Origin: Saprospiraceae bacterium
GTDB taxonomy: Bacteria; Bacteroidota; Bacteroidia; Chitinophagales; Saprospiraceae
Reading direction: 5' to 3'
Length of the DNA: 64,000 nucleotides
NCBI GenBank assembly: GCA_013001595.1
Contig: JABDMH010000056.1
Coordinates: 124,001 to 188,000 of the forward strand
How positions within the stretch are numbered: the first letter of the stretch is position 1; the number at the start of each line of letters is the position of its first letter. Positions 22,100 to 29,250 of this stretch are shown here, one piece after another. The notes under the pieces were generated by a model, which saw only the letters and a program-made list of their open reading frames with translations, was not told the DNA's origin and ran no database searches. Position numbers and translations under genes: made by a program.

Positions 22100-22137
22100 C
22101 CTGTGATACAATTGTGATAGTTAAGTGGTTATTTTGG
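22100..22137 (+). promoter_or_regulatory. 11-bp direct repeats (PhoB-like box) before the regulator gene
   Basis: CCTGTGATACA and ATTGTGATAGT stand head to tail, with TGAT at 22104 and 22115 (11 bp apart) and a degenerate third unit (TGGT at 22126). A -7-like TATTTTGG at 22130-22137 follows the last full TGAT by 15 bp. OmpR/PhoB-type regulators bind direct repeats at this pitch, so this may be an autoregulatory site for the gene starting at 22142. The same motif precedes the repeat protein at 25216. Confidence 0.5.
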
Positions 22138-22141
22138 TTTC

Positions 22142-22843
22142 ATGAAATCGATCTTGGCCATCGAAGATGATCCTAGTCTATTGGAATTGCTCAAAATTCA
22201 CTTGCGTGATATTCATTGTGAATTGGATACGGCAATGGATGGCGAAGAAGGGTTGCAAAAAATTCTTGAAAACAAGTATGATCTGGTGATATTGGATGTC
22301 ATGTTACCATCCCTCAACGGATTTGAGATATGCAAACAAGTACGATCCCATCAAATCTTGACTCCAATTTTAATGCTCACCGCTAAGACGGAAGAGATTG
22401 ATAAGATCCTTGGCCTGGAGATCGGTGCAGATGATTATGTGGTTAAACCATTTAGCATTCGTGAATTGATCGCACGCATTAAAGCTTTACTGAGGAGATC
22501 TAAATTAGCAACAGAGAGCGAAGAGCCCTCAAAAGAAACACGAATTGAAGCAGGCAGCTTAGTCATTGATGTGGCCAAAAGAAAAGTCACGATTGACGAA
22601 AACCGCATAGAATTGTCGCCGAAGGAATTTGACTTACTGACCCTACTCGCCAAGAACCCCGGTGTTAGCTACAGTAGAAATCGTCTGCTGAACCTAATCT
22701 GGGGGCATGATTTTGAGGGCTTTGCTCATACTGTTAATTCTCACATCAATAGACTGAGGGCGAAGATCGAACCCGATATGTCAGCACCGCAATACATTTT
22801 AACAACGTGGGGCATTGGTTATAGATTCAGTGAAGAAGTCTGA
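22142..22843 (+). CDS. OmpR/PhoB-type response regulator
   Basis: A 233-residue DNA-binding response regulator. Receiver: acidic pair ED at 8-10, phospho-acceptor Asp52 (DLVILDVMLPS), LTAK, and Lys in DYVVKPFS. The C-terminal winged helix is of OmpR type (IELSPKEFDLLTLLAKNPG, VNSHINRLRAKIEP, ILTTWGIGYRF). Followed after 29 bp by its sensor kinase. The short leader contains 11-bp direct repeats that it may bind itself. Confidence 0.95.
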   Translation: MKSILAIEDDPSLLELLKIHLRDIHCELDTAMDGEEGLQKILENKYDLVILDVMLPSLNGFEICKQVRSHQILTPILMLTAKTEEIDKILGLEIGADDYVVKPFSIRELIARIKALLRRSKLATESEEPSKETRIEAGSLVIDVAKRKVTIDENRIELSPKEFDLLTLLAKNPGVSYSRNRLLNLIWGHDFEGFAHTVNSHINRLRAKIEPDMSAPQYILTTWGIGYRFSEEV

Positions 22844-22872
22844 TATATTTTCCAACCAGCTAAGGACACACC

Positions 22873-24327
22873 ATGAACAACAAACTATTTTGGAAAATCT
22901 CTCTTGTCTTTCTATTAATTATCATTGCCATCGGGTCGATCTATATCTATCTGGCAGCTTTTACTTCCCGAACATATTTCGAAGAGGCGAATCAGAAGCT
23001 GAATAGCTCGATTGCAGAGCATACCGTAAAAGAGGTTACACCACTAGTAAATGGAGAGGTAGACACCAATGCCATTCAAGAGATCATGCACTCCATGATG
23101 GTCATCAATCCCAGTGTAGAAGTATATTTATTGGATACCAAGGGTAACATTATTACCTACGTGGCTCCCTATAAGAAGGTGAAACTTGAGCGCGTTTCAA
23201 TGCAACCAATATTTGATTTTGTCAAGGGAAATAATGTGCAAATAGTAAAGGGTGATGATCCCCGTAATCCTGGCCAACAAAAGGTATTCTCTGCAGCAGC
23301 CATCAAAGAAAATGACCAGATCACAGGGTACGTATATATTATTTTGGCCAGTGAAGAGCAGACATCAGTACTTGCTACCTTGTTGAGTAGTTACGTACTC
23401 AAATTGGGGACTAAGACATTTTTGATTTCTCTATCATTTGCACTTGTACTGGGCATTTTGACATTCCTCTACTTAACTCGAAATCTGCGGCGTGTGATTC
23501 ATACGGTCAGTCGATTTAAGGAGGGAGACATGACTGCCAGGGTGCAGGCTAATGGAGATTTCTATGAACTGGGAGAGACATTTAATGCCATGGCTGATAA
23601 GATCGTCAATAATATCAATGAGTTAAAATCAGTAGAAAAATTACGCCGAGAACTCATTGCTAATGTGTCTCACGATTTAAGGACGCCCTTATCTGTCATT
23701 CGAGGGTATATCGAAACGTTGGTGATGAAGGACGACCTTTCACCAAAAGACAAAGAGCGCTATCTTTCCATCGTTCATGATAGCACGGAAAACCTTTCCA
23801 AATTAATTGAGCAATTGTTTGAATATTCAAAATTGGAAGCTCAAGAAATTGCTCCTGAAAAAGAACCCTTTCACATCACAGACCTGATTCATGACATCAT
23901 CATGAAGTTTAAGGTGATTGCTGATAATAAGGGGGTAGAGATTAAGCTAGATGCTCCCCAGGATCTTCCCATGGTTTTTGCCGATATCGGTCTTGTAGAA
24001 CGGGCTATCAGTAACCTACTTGACAATGCCCTAAAGTATGGCAATGATCATGGAAAAGTTTTGGTCAGACTGACGGACTCAGACGATGACAATGCAGTTT
24101 CGATTACCATATCTGATGATGGGCCGGGTATTCCCGAAGGGGAGCAGTCTTTTATTTTCGAACGATACAAGAGATTTGATCGAAGCAAATCAAATCGTAA
24201 GGGTGCAGGATTAGGTCTGGCCATTGTCAAGAAAATCCTGGAAATCCACAACCAACGCATCAATGTTTTCTCTGAAGCTGGCAAAGGCGCGTCCTTTCGG
24301 TTCGCATTACCGGCCTATCAATCTTAG
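22873..24327 (+). CDS. Membrane sensor histidine kinase
   Basis: A 484-residue kinase paired with the preceding OmpR-type regulator. Membrane helix 1 (about residues 7-29), an extracytoplasmic sensor region of roughly 140 residues (PAS/Cache-like, containing VEVYLLDTKGNIITYVAPY), helix 2 (about 173-197), HAMP (about 198-250), HisKA with His267 (IANVSHDLRTPLSVI), and HATPase with the N-box (NLLDNALKYGNDHG), DDGPGIPEG and GAGLGLAIVKK. A DUF5112-type or heme-sensing role cannot be inferred; the signal is unknown. Confidence 0.94.
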   Translation: MNNKLFWKISLVFLLIIIAIGSIYIYLAAFTSRTYFEEANQKLNSSIAEHTVKEVTPLVNGEVDTNAIQEIMHSMMVINPSVEVYLLDTKGNIITYVAPYKKVKLERVSMQPIFDFVKGNNVQIVKGDDPRNPGQQKVFSAAAIKENDQITGYVYIILASEEQTSVLATLLSSYVLKLGTKTFLISLSFALVLGILTFLYLTRNLRRVIHTVSRFKEGDMTARVQANGDFYELGETFNAMADKIVNNINELKSVEKLRRELIANVSHDLRTPLSVIRGYIETLVMKDDLSPKDKERYLSIVHDSTENLSKLIEQLFEYSKLEAQEIAPEKEPFHITDLIHDIIMKFKVIADNKGVEIKLDAPQDLPMVFADIGLVERAISNLLDNALKYGNDHGKVLVRLTDSDDDNAVSITISDDGPGIPEGEQSFIFERYKRFDRSKSNRKGAGLGLAIVKKILEIHNQRINVFSEAGKGASFRFALPAYQS

Positions 24328-24371
24328 TCTCCTGATTGGAAAGCTGTAAGGATGAACTTCCGTGATCTACC

Positions 24372-24818
24372 TCAATCTGGATTCGTTAATGGGCTTGGAT
24401 CAAAGAAGTTTTCTTGATGGGTGATTTTTCCATCACCATCTATTCTAAATCTATCAAGTATCCTCAGCCTGCATGATGGTTGAGCAATGTCACAATTGAA
24501 CCCCACTGCCACTGAAGTGAGATCTTTGTTGAAGTATGAATCGATGAAGGTTGTTCCTTTGACTAATTGTGGTAGGGGAGCCCACCATTCGACTCGAATA
24601 TTTTCCTTTCCCACAATCGGCTTTGATGGGCCACTTGAATTCAAAGGTGCCCTCAGACTCACCTGATCATGATACTGTATTAGATCAAAATTTCCTGAAC
24701 CTAGGGCTGTTACATAATTCTTAGCGATCGATTGTAACTGTTCTACCCTTGACTTGTTACCATTCTGAATTGGCTTTAAACGATATCCACAAGCTACCAC
24801 CGCGCTCGAAAGCACCAT
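24372..24818 (-). CDS. NTF2-like/SnoaL-like protein, possibly lipoprotein
   Basis: About 148 residues with the pattern of a small cone-shaped NTF2-like fold: helix RVEQLQSIAKNYVTALGSGNFDLIQYHDQVSLRAP, then beta strands ending DRFRIDGDGKITHQENFFDP, which is typical of SnoaL-like domains. The N-terminus MVLSSAVVACGYRL has a short hydrophobic run and a Cys that could be lipidated. The frame stays open to 24917 but the extra 33 residues are hydrophilic and Cys-rich, so I favour 24818. It is convergent with the sensor kinase. Ligand or reaction is unknown. Confidence 0.6.
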   Translation of the reverse strand: MVLSSAVVACGYRLKPIQNGNKSRVEQLQSIAKNYVTALGSGNFDLIQYHDQVSLRAPLNSSGPSKPIVGKENIRVEWWAPLPQLVKGTTFIDSYFNKDLTSVAVGFNCDIAQPSCRLRILDRFRIDGDGKITHQENFFDPSPLTNPD

Positions 24819-25215
24819 TGTAAATTTGCGGCAGATTGGCAGAAGGCAGCACTTAAGTTGGTTTGGATGCTTCTCTTCGATGCAATGTCCTCGATCAACG
24901 ACTGGCAAGTACACCAATGTCGTGATCCAGGATGAACTTGTAGTTTGCGGATGGGTAAGTGAGACTATACTTCAGCAGACTTTCCCATAAAAATGACTTT
25001 GTCGTGCGCAGGACATACATCGTTAATTGCCGGCAGCTACTTTAAGCGAAGTTGGACTGCAAAAATATCGTAAATGATTATTAATCATTAATATATGCAT
25101 GAGCAAATAACTGATAGCGTGATCAAAGTCTCCTTGTGATATTCTTGTGATCTTTTAGTGATGAATTGATGATCTGGTCTTTCTACATTTAACAGTGTTA
25201 CAAAAAAAGATCAAA
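24819..25215. promoter_or_regulatory. Upstream region of the repeat protein gene
   Basis: About 400 bp. It contains an AT-rich inverted repeat AATGATT-ATT-AATCATT at 25073-25089, then four head-to-tail 11-bp units at 25133-25176, then TACATTTA (25184-25191), a -7-like box that would start transcription just before the ATG at 25216. The left part includes a possible N-terminal extension of the NTF2-like frame. No other gene is seen. Confidence 0.5.
25133..25176 (+). promoter_or_regulatory. Four 11-bp direct repeats (PhoB-like box)
   Basis: CTTGTGATATT, CTTGTGATCTT, TTAGTGATGAA and TTGATGATCTG follow one another without a gap; TGAT recurs at 25137, 25148, 25159 and 25170. An extra GTGAT lies at 25119. 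The last TGAT is 14 bp before the -7 box TACATTTA, nearly the same placement as in front of the OmpR-type regulator gene (15 bp). Confidence 0.6.
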
Positions 25216-28200
25216 ATGAGTGCAAAAAGAATTACCCTTATCATGATGTGTTGGATTACCATGACACATCAATTGCTTTACAGTCAGTGTATTCCAGATC
25301 AATCAGTCATGACCTACCGGGGCGAGACTGAGGTTGAGATCTGCTTAGGAAGCAATAAGACCAGTATTTATGCCAGGCCAAAATACCAATCTAGTCCGAC
25401 CGTCTATGCGATCACCGATGAACAGGATATGATATTGGATGTAGTGTATGGTAGTAAAATAGATTTTGGAGGGGCTCCTCCGGGTATCTGTCGTGTATAT
25501 GGCATTTCCTGGTGGGGTACATTGCAGACACCTATTGACATTTCAGTTCACGATGCAGTCTTTAGTGATTTTTGCTATGAGGTATCTACGAATTATATAC
25601 AGGTTACCAGAACCTCATTAGGTAGTGGCACTGTGCAGACCGCAGACGGTGCTACAGAAGTCTATACCTGTCCAGGTGATGGTATCGAGGACATTGTTTC
25701 TTTTTCCTATGATGGGACAAGTGAGGCTGGTTTTACCTATGTCATAACAGATGAAAATTACCAGATCCTTGGGCTTCCAGAGGGAGAGTCGCAGGATTTT
25801 GAGGGAGCAGGAGTAGGAGTGTGCCTGGTATGGGGACTAAATTACCAGGGAGATCTTCTTGCTGAAGTAGGTGGACATGCACTAAATGACCAACTGGCTA
25901 CTGGTTGTTTCGGACTCACGGACAATAGTATCACAGTGACCCGAGCAACACCTGCAGCTGGTAAGATCTTAACCATGGCTGGTGAAGAAGAGATTAGCTT
26001 ATGCGTTGGAGATGGCATTTCCGATGAAATCGATTTTGCTGGAGAAGGACAGTCTAATGCTGGATACAGACTCGTCGTGACCGACGATCAAAATAATATT
26101 GTTGGATTACCCCCAGGACTTTTAGTCGATTTTGAAGGCGCCGGACAAGGTGTTTGCCGAGTTTGGGCAGTTTCCTATACTGGATCATTCTTATTGGAAA
26201 TGGGTCAACATCTTCTTGAGGCGAACATCTCCTCAAGTTGTTCAGAATTAACTGAAAACTATGTGGAAGTAAATCGCACCCAAGTGAATGGGGGGACAGT
26301 GAGTACTTCCGATACCTTGACCAGAGTGTATACGTGTACGCAAGATGACATCGACGATATATTCTCGTTTATGGCGGAGGGAGCCATGGGAGAGCATCAT
26401 CGATTCGTGATCACGACACCAGATCTAGAGATTCTTGGAATCGTGGATAGTATCCAAAACTTTGATGGAGCCCCTCCTGGCACCTGTTGGGTATGGGGAC
26501 TGGCTTACTCTGGTGAATTGCTTGCCATGGTTGGAGATAATGCTGGTGAAGTGGCACTTTCAAGTGGATGCTATGATTTATCTGACAACTTTGTGGAGGT
26601 TATACGAGATGTTCCCGATGGCGGCACAGTCTCCTTGCCTTCGGGAGATACCGAGGTTTATACCTGTACCCAAGATGAAAATCCCGATCTTATTCGATTC
26701 CAACATGAAGGTGCTTCCAATTCCAAATACACCTACGTGATTACCACTCCCGACTTGGAAATCTTAGGGATTACGGACGCTGATAGTATGAACTTCAATG
26801 ACGCTCCCCCAGGCACTTGCTGGGTATGGGGACTTGCCTATACTGGATCTTTGACAGCTTCGTTGGGTGAAAATGCTGGTGAAGTCGCTCTTTCTGATGA
26901 TTGCTTCGACCTTTCAGATAGCTTCATCAAGGTAACTAGAGACATACCCGATGGTGGTCAAGTAAGTACGCCGACTGGAGATACAGTTGCCTACACCTGT
27001 CCTCAAGATGGTAAAGCGGATTTCGTAAACTTTGCACATAGTGGTGCATCTAATTCTAAATACACGTACATCATCACAGATCCATCGCTGGAAATATTGG
27101 GCATTACTGAAGAAGAGAAGATGGATTTTGATGCGGCACCAGCTGGCACTTGCTGGGTATGGGGATTGGCTTACACAGGTGACCTCATCGCCAGCGTCGG
27201 TGATAATGCAGGAGAAATTATGTTGTCTGATGATTGCTTCGACCTATCTGACAATTATATCTCCGTTATCAGACAAGAACCCGAGGGTGGTACAGTAGCA
27301 ATGCCATCAGGAAACGCCGAGGTACAGACATGCACACAAGATTCTACGGGAGATGTAGTCATGTTTGAAGCAAGTGGTCAAAGTGACTCCAAATACGCAT
27401 ACATCATTACTGCTCCATCCCTAGAGATTTTGGGCGTTGAGTTTAATGATAGCCATGATTTTAACGATGCACCTCCAGGTACATGCTGGGTATGGGGCTT
27501 GGCATATACAGGCGAAATTACTGCGAAAGTTGGTGAACAGGCTGATGAAGTTCAGCTTACCAGTGGTTGCGCTGATCTAAGTGACAACTATATTACGGTT
27601 ATCCGTACCAGTCCAGATGGAGGACAGGTTTCAATGCCTTCGGGTGACACAGTAGTTCATACCTGCACCCAAGATAGTGTTGCAGATGTGGTTGGATTAA
27701 GCCACCAAAACAATAGTGGTCCAAACTATGTGTACATCATCACATCTCCGGACCTGGAGATCTTAGGAATTGAGACGAATAGCACACATGACTTCAACGA
27801 TGCGCCTCCAGGTACATGCTGGGTATGGGGATTGGCATACACAGGCAATTTGACAGCCGAGGTTGGACAAAATGCAGGGGAGGTTGCTTTATCTGATGCT
27901 TGTTTCGATCTATCAGAAAATTATATTACCGTGATACGGGATATGCCGATGGGTGGAACCATTGCCATGACATCAGGTGAAACTACCCGATATACCTGTA
28001 CGCATGACGGTTCTGCAGATGTGGTCGCCTTTGAGACAATAAATACATCGAATTCAAAATATGCCTACATCATCACTTCTCCCACCCTGGAGATTCTGGG
28101 TATAGAATTTAATGATAGTCATGATTTCAATGATGCACCCCCGGGTACATGCTGGGTGTGGGGCTTAGCTTATACTGGAAACATTATAGCCGAGGTGGGC

Positions 28201-29250
28201 GATCAAGCCGATGCTGTGAGTCTTACTGATGACTGCTACGATCTTTCCGATAATTACATTACGGTGATTAGGGACATCCCGGAAGGGGGTATGATTGCTA
28301 TGCCGTCAGGAGAAACTACACGTTATACTTGCACCCAAGATGGTACTGAAGATTTGGTAGAATTTAGCGTGACGGGGGCTTCGAATAGCAAGTACGCATA
28401 TGTAATCACATCTCCTTCATTGGAAATTCTGGGAATAGAGTTTAATGATAGCCATGATTTTGACGATGCACCTCCAGGTACCTGTTGGGTTTGGGGCTTG
28501 GCTTACACAGGTGAGCTTAAAGCCGAAGTAGGAGATCAAGCTGATGAGGTCGATCTTTCCTCGGATTGTGCAGACCTTTCGGACAACTATATTACTGTAA
28601 TCAGAGATTCAATAGACGGTGGAACAGTGGCTACAAATTTAGGTGATACCGAAGTTTCTACAATTGCTGGTGATGGCAATGCAGACTTGATACAATTTAC
28701 GCATTTGAATGCATCCAATAGCAAATACGCGTATGTTATTACCAATGTTGAAAATGAAATACTGGGTCTGCCAGATGGAGATTCCCAGGATTTTGAAGGT
28801 GCCGGAGCAGGAGTTTGCAGGGTGTGGGGACTTGCTTACACGGGAGCAATCACTGCACAAGTAGGGGATGATGCGGACAGTGTAGCATTGTCAGACGACT
28901 GCTACGATTTATCGGACAACTTTATTACCATTACACGGTCAGAATCGGGGGCAGGGCTAGCTCTGCAGCGAGGACCTCAGGTTGGAAAACCATCATCCGG
29001 CAGTTTAGCGTTGATGCTTCAGAATCCAGTCGTTGGTCGCATAATGGGGCAAATCACAGTTGAGCTTAGAACAGACCTGCAGGTAAGTTTACATAGTTAT
29101 CACGGAGTGGAGATCAGAAGTGAAACCATTCGTAATGCCCTAGGTTTGGTCACACTAGATTGGGATACTGGAGACCTAAGCAAAGGTCTGTACCTGATCA
29201 CCATTTTTGACGGTAAACAGTTAGTCTCAGAGAAATTAGCGATCCATTAA
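25216..29250 (+). CDS. Giant repeat protein with T9SS type A sorting domain
   Basis: About 1,344 residues, secreted. A Sec signal (MSAKRITLIMMCWITMTHQLLYSQC) is followed by eleven tandem repeats of about 111 residues and a C-terminal type IX secretion sorting domain of about 80 residues (LQNPVVGRIMGQITVELR ... GLYLITIFDGKQLVSEKLAIH). A repeat has the frame D(T)EVYTC-QDG-AD-V-F, YVIT-P-LEILGI, DAPPGTCWVWGLAYTG, and C-DLSDNYI-VIRD-P-GG, with three conserved Cys. Units 4-10 are closely alike, while units 2, 3 and 11 use a variant (FEGAG-GVCRVWGL). The GTG at 25195 would add seven charged residues before the signal; ATG 25216 is preferred. Likely a surface or released adhesin-like protein; no enzymatic motif is seen. 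Confidence 0.88.
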   Translation: MSAKRITLIMMCWITMTHQLLYSQCIPDQSVMTYRGETEVEICLGSNKTSIYARPKYQSSPTVYAITDEQDMILDVVYGSKIDFGGAPPGICRVYGISWWGTLQTPIDISVHDAVFSDFCYEVSTNYIQVTRTSLGSGTVQTADGATEVYTCPGDGIEDIVSFSYDGTSEAGFTYVITDENYQILGLPEGESQDFEGAGVGVCLVWGLNYQGDLLAEVGGHALNDQLATGCFGLTDNSITVTRATPAAGKILTMAGEEEISLCVGDGISDEIDFAGEGQSNAGYRLVVTDDQNNIVGLPPGLLVDFEGAGQGVCRVWAVSYTGSFLLEMGQHLLEANISSSCSELTENYVEVNRTQVNGGTVSTSDTLTRVYTCTQDDIDDIFSFMAEGAMGEHHRFVITTPDLEILGIVDSIQNFDGAPPGTCWVWGLAYSGELLAMVGDNAGEVALSSGCYDLSDNFVEVIRDVPDGGTVSLPSGDTEVYTCTQDENPDLIRFQHEGASNSKYTYVITTPDLEILGITDADSMNFNDAPPGTCWVWGLAYTGSLTASLGENAGEVALSDDCFDLSDSFIKVTRDIPDGGQVSTPTGDTVAYTCPQDGKADFVNFAHSGASNSKYTYIITDPSLEILGITEEEKMDFDAAPAGTCWVWGLAYTGDLIASVGDNAGEIMLSDDCFDLSDNYISVIRQEPEGGTVAMPSGNAEVQTCTQDSTGDVVMFEASGQSDSKYAYIITAPSLEILGVEFNDSHDFNDAPPGTCWVWGLAYTGEITAKVGEQADEVQLTSGCADLSDNYITVIRTSPDGGQVSMPSGDTVVHTCTQDSVADVVGLSHQNNSGPNYVYIITSPDLEILGIETNSTHDFNDAPPGTCWVWGLAYTGNLTAEVGQNAGEVALSDACFDLSENYITVIRDMPMGGTIAMTSGETTRYTCTHDGSADVVAFETINTSNSKYAYIITSPTLEILGIEFNDSHDFNDAPPGTCWVWGLAYTGNIIAEVGDQADAVSLTDDCYDLSDNYITVIRDIPEGGMIAMPSGETTRYTCTQDGTEDLVEFSVTGASNSKYAYVITSPSLEILGIEFNDSHDFDDAPPGTCWVWGLAYTGELKAEVGDQADEVDLSSDCADLSDNYITVIRDSIDGGTVATNLGDTEVSTIAGDGNADLIQFTHLNASNSKYAYVITNVENEILGLPDGDSQDFEGAGAGVCRVWGLAYTGAITAQVGDDADSVALSDDCYDLSDNFITITRSESGAGLALQRGPQVGKPSSGSLALMLQNPVVGRIMGQITVELRTDLQVSLHSYHGVEIRSETIRNALGLVTLDWDTGDLSKGLYLITIFDGKQLVSEKLAIH
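25303..28956 (+). repeat. Eleven in-gene tandem repeats, ~332 bp each
   Basis: Coding repeats of the T9SS cargo protein. The average unit is 332 bp. The protein sequence of the central units is much better conserved than the codons, which differ freely (for example the GTCWVWGLAYTG segment is spelled differently in most units), so this is an old or selected array rather than a very recent duplication. Confidence 0.85.

Follow-up and report, generated by a model that had tools for sequence, protein, structure and literature searches.

In a 64,000-nucleotide stretch of DNA from a Saprospiraceae bacterium (contig JABDMH010000056.1, positions 124,001 to 188,000; this whole stretch is called the window below), we describe an operon at 22142-24327 that very probably encodes an autoregulated two-component system. 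The system also appears to control the gene of a large downstream protein with cysteine-containing repeats (Cys-repeat protein), and it would do so through tandem operators with an 11-bp pitch. A preliminary description of the window had proposed both links. Comparisons between genomes support both: an operator is kept in 51 of 59 upstream regions of related response regulator (RR) genes, its register to a -7 box is fixed, an excess of the motif tracks the kinase, and targets in other genomes include Cys-repeat proteins of the same family. The features concerned are the following:

22142..22843, plus strand: RR gene, OmpR/PhoB-type response regulator of 233 aa with receiver and Trans_reg_C domains (from domain profile matches)
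22873..24327, plus strand: sensor histidine kinase gene, 484 aa, with HisKA, HATPase_c and a HAMP-like region; MHxMM at residues 72-76
25216..29250, plus strand (frame from GTG 25195, 1351 aa): gene of the large Cys-repeat protein, with roughly eleven copies of a ca. 111-aa repeat
22102..22119, plus strand: predicted RR operator, two 11-bp units, TGTGATA-CAAT-TGTGATA (from the sequence; kept before orthologous RR genes)
25135..25178, plus strand: predicted operator upstream of the Cys-repeat gene, made up of four adjoining 11-bp units that start at 25135, 25146, 25157 and 25168
22129..22136, plus strand: -7-like box TTATTTTG of the RR promoter, matching TAnnTTTG at 5/6 positions, 27 bp from the site start
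25184..25191, plus strand: -7-like box TACATTTA of the Cys-repeat promoter, 5/6, 49 bp from the site start and 27 bp from where unit 3 begins

The direct repeats that the preliminary description had reported upstream of both genes are real, with two units and four units, respectively, and all six of its TGAT positions (22104, 22115, 25137, 25148, 25159 and 25170) are correct. YGTGATA repeated every 11 bp describes them better, with two units beginning at 22102 and four at 25135; units 3 and 4 of the latter array are less well kept than units 1 and 2. From the last TGAT to the -7-like box it had counted 15 bp for the RR gene and 14 bp for the Cys-repeat gene; the second figure stands (25170 to 25184), and the first is likewise 14 (22115 to 22129). 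The Cys-repeat promoter reads TGTGATATTCT-TGTGATCTTTT-AGTGATGAATT-GATGATCTGGT-CTTTC-TACATTTA, and since its box ends at 25191, the in-frame ATG at 25216 is a likelier start of the gene than GTG 25195. The RR carries both domains of the OmpR/PhoB set above cut-off (PF00072, 98.3 bits; PF00486, 92.3 bits), and the HAMP-like match of the kinase falls just under it (24 bits, cut-off 25).

Conservation of the RR operator

We collected the DNA upstream of RR matches that were at least 50% identical, began no later than residue six and had 60 bp or more in front of them, and kept one region per identical 60-bp upstream stretch, which gave 59 distinct regions (among the loci that fail these criteria are L018, L024, L037, L048, L049, L051 and L052). 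Two YGTGATA units at pitch 11 match at 14/14 positions in 28 of these regions, at 13 or more in 47 and at 12 or more in 51. Every other pitch between 8 and 23 brings only 0-6 of the 59 regions to 12/14 or better, with the exception of pitch 22, where 19 do so, perhaps owing to a third unit or to another chance alignment of the array. When the 51 operators were compared with dinucleotide shuffles, 49 were matched by 0/100 and two by 1/100. They align without gaps as YGTGATACTTT-YGTGATACTT-n6-TAnnTTTG. Tandem direct repeats at the 10-11 bp pitch typical of OmpR/PhoB-type regulators are present at the level of sequence (pitch 11 in 51/59). The conserved operator spans Saprospiraceae to Flexithrix of the class Cytophagia (locus L039, 13/14). 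Neolewinella persica, of the class Saprospiria, is absent from the 59 regions because its RR is not on the retrieved kinase locus (L024).

A fixed register to the -7 box

The -7 consensus of Bacteroidota housekeeping promoters is TAnnTTTG (PMC7366714). Among the 51 RR operators, the best box is perfect in 17 against a shuffle expectation of 1.1 and matches 5/6 positions in 15 against 12.9, so the 5/6 number is uninformative and only the perfect count and the fixed position tell; 30 of these 32 boxes lie at +27 from the site start. We then used 200 non-redundant tandem sites from all retrieved loci (7 of 207 had been dropped as at least 80% alike), the loci having been gathered by motif or kinase and not by box. 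Perfect boxes are found there at offsets 27 (24 sites), 38 (27), 49 (19), 39 (2), 60 (1) and 61 (1), with 70 of 74 at 27, 38 or 49, compared to 6.9 expected in total across 48 offsets from shuffled flanks. Boxes with 5/6 matches peak at 27 (32) and 38 (11), with fewer at 49 (3), above a thin scatter, and the reversed-unit control gave four sites and no box.

Offsets 38 and 49 largely represent promoters with three or four units and are not independent, as such arrays count pairs 1-2 and 2-3 both. The 23 promoters with a box at 49 were picked by units 1-2 plus the box, which leaves just units 3 and 4 as independent evidence; unit 3 retains the GA of YGTGA in 23/23 and unit 4 is degenerate. The Cys-repeat promoter of the window falls in this class. 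Eleven of the 51 RR promoters, among them those of the own genus and of Fulvivirga, have an operator that starts 39-40 bp upstream of the ATG; the -7 box then ends about 5 bp from the start codon, and a leaderless RR transcript is therefore predicted for them.

The motif in the window and its genome

Bare TGAT pairs at 11-bp pitch were set aside as evidence because they are too common in the window compared to shuffles (10 against a mean of 5.59, with at least 10 in 4/100). The longer motif TGTGATN5TGTGAT with up to one mismatch occurs four times in the window against a shuffle mean of 0.74, and 0/100 shuffles reach four. Its exact form is found four times in the whole 6.2 Mb genome (reversed control 0), two of them in the window, 3 kb apart, and the others within a coding frame (L011) and upstream of a lipoprotein gene (L012). 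The four-fold TGAT array occurs once in the genome (reversed control 0). The preliminary description had suggested a genome-wide search and considered that an equal frequency in random sequence would speak against the motif; the full motif is not equally frequent and exceeds reversed and shuffled controls.

With up to one mismatch, the full promoter is matched before three genes of this genome only: the RR gene, the Cys-repeat gene and, on contig C105, a lipoprotein gene. The C105 site lies 40 bp upstream of the lipoprotein ATG, its 5/6 box keeps the register of the window promoters, and the protein has a Big_2 domain above cut-off and a DM13 match slightly under it (22.7 against 25 bits). Three more sites of the motif with one mismatch lie in coding frames (L115, L118) or beyond a frame that by eye looks sulfatase-like (L116), where no long frame begins just downstream. 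A wider regulon in this genome defined by looser matches was rejected, with 95 sites against 115 controls, 11 against 14 and 11 against 12.

Co-occurrence of motif and kinase

Orthologues of the kinase were detected in 9 of 40 relatives (E 1e-60) and, with at most eight candidates scored per genome, in 47 of 199 family genomes (E 1e-75), the own genome included in both. They also occur in Neolewinella persica, Fulvivirga, Flexithrix dorotheae, Pararhodonellum and Marinoscillum, among others. Among the family genomes, 35 of the 47 kinase-positive and 18 of the 152 kinase-negative ones contain the strict motif YGTGATAN4YGTGATA (Fisher p 7e-16, which is too small because related genomes are not independent). 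Counted as sites against the reversed control across the 199 genomes, the contrast is plain: 58:9 where the kinase was found and 18:17 where it was not. The 58 sites divide evenly into 29 at no more than 5 kb from the kinase and 29 farther off; of the distant ones, one is the RR gene itself on a broken contig (G005) and at least two are intragenic (G214 C528, G215 C297). In a set of 39 kinase-bearing genomes, which left out the weak-match loci L048, L049, L051 and L052, we found 54 motif sites against 4 controls, present in 29/39. The looser TTGTGATN4TTGTGAT gave 49 sites against 11 controls in 38/199 genomes.

Predicted targets in other genomes

Sorted by downstream gene, the 108 distinct strict sites precede RR genes (34), Cys-repeat genes (11), RskA_C-like lipoproteins (11), MsrA (5), Big_2-DM13 lipoproteins (4) and Spondin-like lipoproteins (3), numbers that are counts rather than rates as they pool several differently sampled genome sets. 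Classes were set by text patterns or BLAST, with Pfam on representatives: RskA_C (41 bits) and PMSR (211 bits) were above cut-off, as was DM13 in the targets of L028, L068, L069 and L159 and a sorting domain of the type IX secretion system (T9SS) in the target of L148, whereas Spond_N remained under it (20.2 against 24). Several of the Cys-repeat genes that are targets in other genomes lie divergent from the RR gene. Around the operon itself, three relatives (L015-L017) have DoxX divergent to the RR gene and a 4Fe-4S/CDGSH protein after the kinase, with MsrB near the operon in L015 and MsrA in L016. Neighbour clusters in 31 compared loci include a Big_2-type lipoprotein (6) and a DM13-type one (5; Pfam on L036, L042 and L028).

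CRP/FNR-type regulator genes lie behind operator sites in L073, L074 and L246 (Pfam on L074 only), in L073 divergent from the RR gene, and a regulatory cascade is possible there. By eye, the intragenic matches in L055, L056, L078, L083 and L266 lie in repeat proteins in which codons for peptides like CDSIVI spell TGTGAT-n5-TGTGAT, i.e., a coding mimic.

The Cys-repeat protein and its surroundings

Ten of the roughly eleven repeats of the Cys-repeat protein have three cysteines and the last has two. They are modelled as all-beta modules with high confidence (predicted local distance difference test, pLDDT, 95.7), and as matches of the model to the PDB are weak (fibronectin-like, cadherin and S-layer folds at template modelling scores of ca. 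0.2-0.4), we claim no family for them. The family is widespread, with matches at E <=1e-20 in 116 of 199 family genomes, often in several copies. The preliminary description had called the protein a T9SS protein. This label is partly supported: SprA (TIGR04189), the sole T9SS part searched, scores 2347 bits in the own genome (cut-off 200; 0/14 control genomes), but the match of the protein to the C-terminal sorting domain TIGR04183 is sub-threshold (19.1 bits, cut-off 23). Export of the protein by the T9SS is plausible.

In the window, ca. 0.85 kb separates the kinase from the Cys-repeat gene (24328-25100), with a 181-aa minus-strand frame inside that has no Pfam match. In the same-genus genome G004 (locus L003, 2940-3110), a large frame follows about 115 bp after the kinase and is preceded by three 11-bp units. 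Farther downstream, at 33500-58400 of the window, short plus-strand frames are densely packed.

The sensor domain

The extracytoplasmic domain of the kinase is modelled as PDC/Cache-like with moderate confidence (pLDDT 74.2). Only this label was drawn from structure matches of the model, two of which reach E <=0.001 in the PDB (3cwf and 6w3s), with CusS and WalK among weaker ones. In the MHxMM motif of 56 aligned sequences, M76 never varies, and at least 90% retain M72, H73 and M75 (whole-kinase numbering). This conservation together with MsrA among the targets hints at a signal tied to methionine oxidation or copper, and it puts such a signal within direct experimental reach.

Proposed mechanism and alternatives

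In the model that we propose, the kinase would sense an extracytoplasmic condition via its PDC/Cache-like domain with MHxMM and phosphorylate the RR. The tandem 11-bp units, YGTGATA-N4, would be bound by RR molecules arranged head to tail; these units occupy the -33 region and would set the RR beside RNA polymerase at the TAnnTTTG box. At the RR promoter, two units adjoin the box (offset 27). The promoters of the Cys-repeat gene and of numerous further targets, in which three or four units keep this phase (offsets 38 and 49), would carry stacked RR molecules. Predicted targets in the own genome are the operon itself, the Cys-repeat gene and the Big_2-DM13 lipoprotein gene on C105, to which Spondin-like and RskA_C-like lipoproteins and MsrA may be added elsewhere. 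We infer an autoregulated envelope-stress system in which the RR would bind its operators to activate rather than repress, and our guess is that oxidative or metal damage to envelope proteins is the signal. The broader idea that this is an undescribed envelope-stress system from Saprospiraceae to Cytophagia is one that we advance tentatively and rate as possible rather than probable: its MHxMM patch would read oxidation or metal binding, its regulon would comprise DM13/Big_2, Spondin-like and RskA_C-like lipoproteins, MsrA and Cys-repeat surface proteins, and promoter strength or threshold would be determined by how many 11-bp units lie in phase (two at its own promoter, three or four at many targets).

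Several observations weigh against an autoregulated system that controls the Cys-repeat gene and further targets. Eight of the 59 RR regions have no convincing forward site, though three of them (L008, L189 and L191) match at 14/14 on the opposite strand, and the 5/6 boxes of the RR promoters do not stand out from shuffles. Matches with two mismatches in the own genome are not above reversed controls (which were not split by mismatch). Among the 108 strict sites, 13 are within long frames and 27 belong to no class, although these 27 include targets missed by text patterns (partly judged by eye): DM13 in L028, L045 and L069, Spondin-like in L031 and L184, and CRP-family in L073, L074 and L246. 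Finally, five of the 18 sites in kinase-negative genomes lie upstream of typical targets (MsrA in G040 and G050, RskA_C-like in G117, Cys-repeat in G126 and DM13 in G208), next to eight intragenic ones in long frames and five others; a diverged or unassembled kinase, the eight-candidate limit of the search or a second regulator could be the cause of these five.

The alternative that survives best, though we consider it unlikely, accepts the sites as RR operators and takes the RR to be chiefly a repressor there. The operator overlaps the promoter region beside the -7 box, and position alone leaves the sign undecided; yet the arrays run upstream in helical phase with the box, as for polymerase-contacting activators, and the E. 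coli PhoB dimer that is modelled over the -35 region belongs to an activator (PMC3348028). Rather less probable is that the RR binds its own promoter only and that the array at 25135 consists of a second system's sites or is a remnant, leaving the Cys-repeat gene outside RR control. Such a reading could draw on the degenerate units 3 and 4 of this array, on the five typical targets in kinase-negative genomes and on the fact that the operator was examined before only a minority of Cys-repeat family members. It fits poorly with an array that keeps the family register (offset 49), with Cys-repeat genes behind 11 of the 108 strict sites in other genomes and with a motif excess confined to kinase-positive genomes. 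It is very improbable that a CRP/FNR-type regulator recognizes the TGTGA units: the YGTGA half-site, which we take to resemble that of CRP, and the few CRP-family genes behind sites would speak for it, but the repeats are direct and not inverted, and CRP-type inverted sites were rejected as YGTGA-N6-TCACA occurs in 0/200 tandem sites. Chance or coding-like repeats without function, to which the common bare TGAT pairs and the 13 intragenic sites would lend some colour, can be dismissed almost entirely in view of genome counts above reversed controls, shuffles and conservation in 51/59 RR regions, unless the latter had another cause.

The rule of YGTGATA units with a TAnnTTTG box at 27+11k bp can be used for target annotation, and the predicted regulon gives one context to proteins that are little understood, namely the DM13, Spondin-like and RskA_C-like lipoproteins and the large family of Cys-repeat proteins.

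Comparison with known systems

As names for the RR, Bacteroidota PhoB (NF053854, 201.2 bits against an equivalog cut-off of 270), WalR/YycF (NF040534, 222.8 against 340) and MtrA (NF040689, 225.1 against 300) were all rejected, and each of the 25 NCBIfam matches listed (of 97) is under cut-off. Among the titles and abstract openings listed from open-licence literature, we found neither this operator and regulon described, which is weak evidence of absence, nor a mapped operator for such a regulator in environmental Bacteroidota.

The closest parallels in operator architecture come from other phyla. Mycobacterium tuberculosis PhoP binds as a tandem dimer to directly repeated 7-bp motifs that are 4 bp apart, and three and four motifs are bound more tightly than two (PMC4832192). 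It shares the OmpR/PhoB family and this spacing with the RR and differs in regulon and phylum, and orthology is not implied. WalR/VicR of Bacillota recognizes TGTWAHA-N4-TGTWAHA, with the same unit length and spacing as YGTGATA-N4-YGTGATA (PMC4168254). However, position 4 is A/T there and G here, and the predicted targets here are lipoproteins, MsrA and repeat proteins; the RR operators agree with the TGTWAH-N5-TGTWAH box in spacing only, as position 4 is G in 50/51 first and 51/51 second units. The E. coli pho box consists of direct repeats CTGTCAT-(A/T)4-CTGTCAT (PMC4832192). PhoB differs by its half-site (TGTCA against YGTGA) and by the Bacteroidota -7 box here, and no phosphate genes were seen among the named targets of the Pfam-examined loci.

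Other systems are alike in what they control. HprSR couples reactive chlorine stress to methionine sulfoxide repair, and YedY is an MsrP-type protein. E. coli CusSR induces msrPQ under copper stress, a precedent of kind for a two-component system that couples envelope stress to methionine sulfoxide repair (PMC9302797). The enzyme here is MsrA and the other targets are mostly lipoproteins or repeat proteins, so we draw this likeness without a claim of orthology. The extracytoplasmic function (ECF) sigma factor F of Caulobacter has a small regulon that includes DoxX and YedY (PMC3511200). There the regulator is a sigma factor and DoxX a target, whereas here it is a response regulator with DoxX as a divergent neighbour in L015-L017.

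Within Bacteroidota, PorX is to our knowledge not an OmpR/PhoB-type DNA-binding regulator. PorXY-SigP of Porphyromonas gingivalis is likewise a two-component system tied to the T9SS but works via an ECF sigma factor (PMC4800418). PhoPR of Riemerella anatipestifer shares the binding of its own promoter by a two-component regulator, and differs by its ArcA-like core TTTAACA and 583 peaks from the YGTGATA units and few sites per genome found here (PMC9603813). The proposed mechanism is of a known kind, and the operator, the phase rule and the regulon seem new in Bacteroidota.

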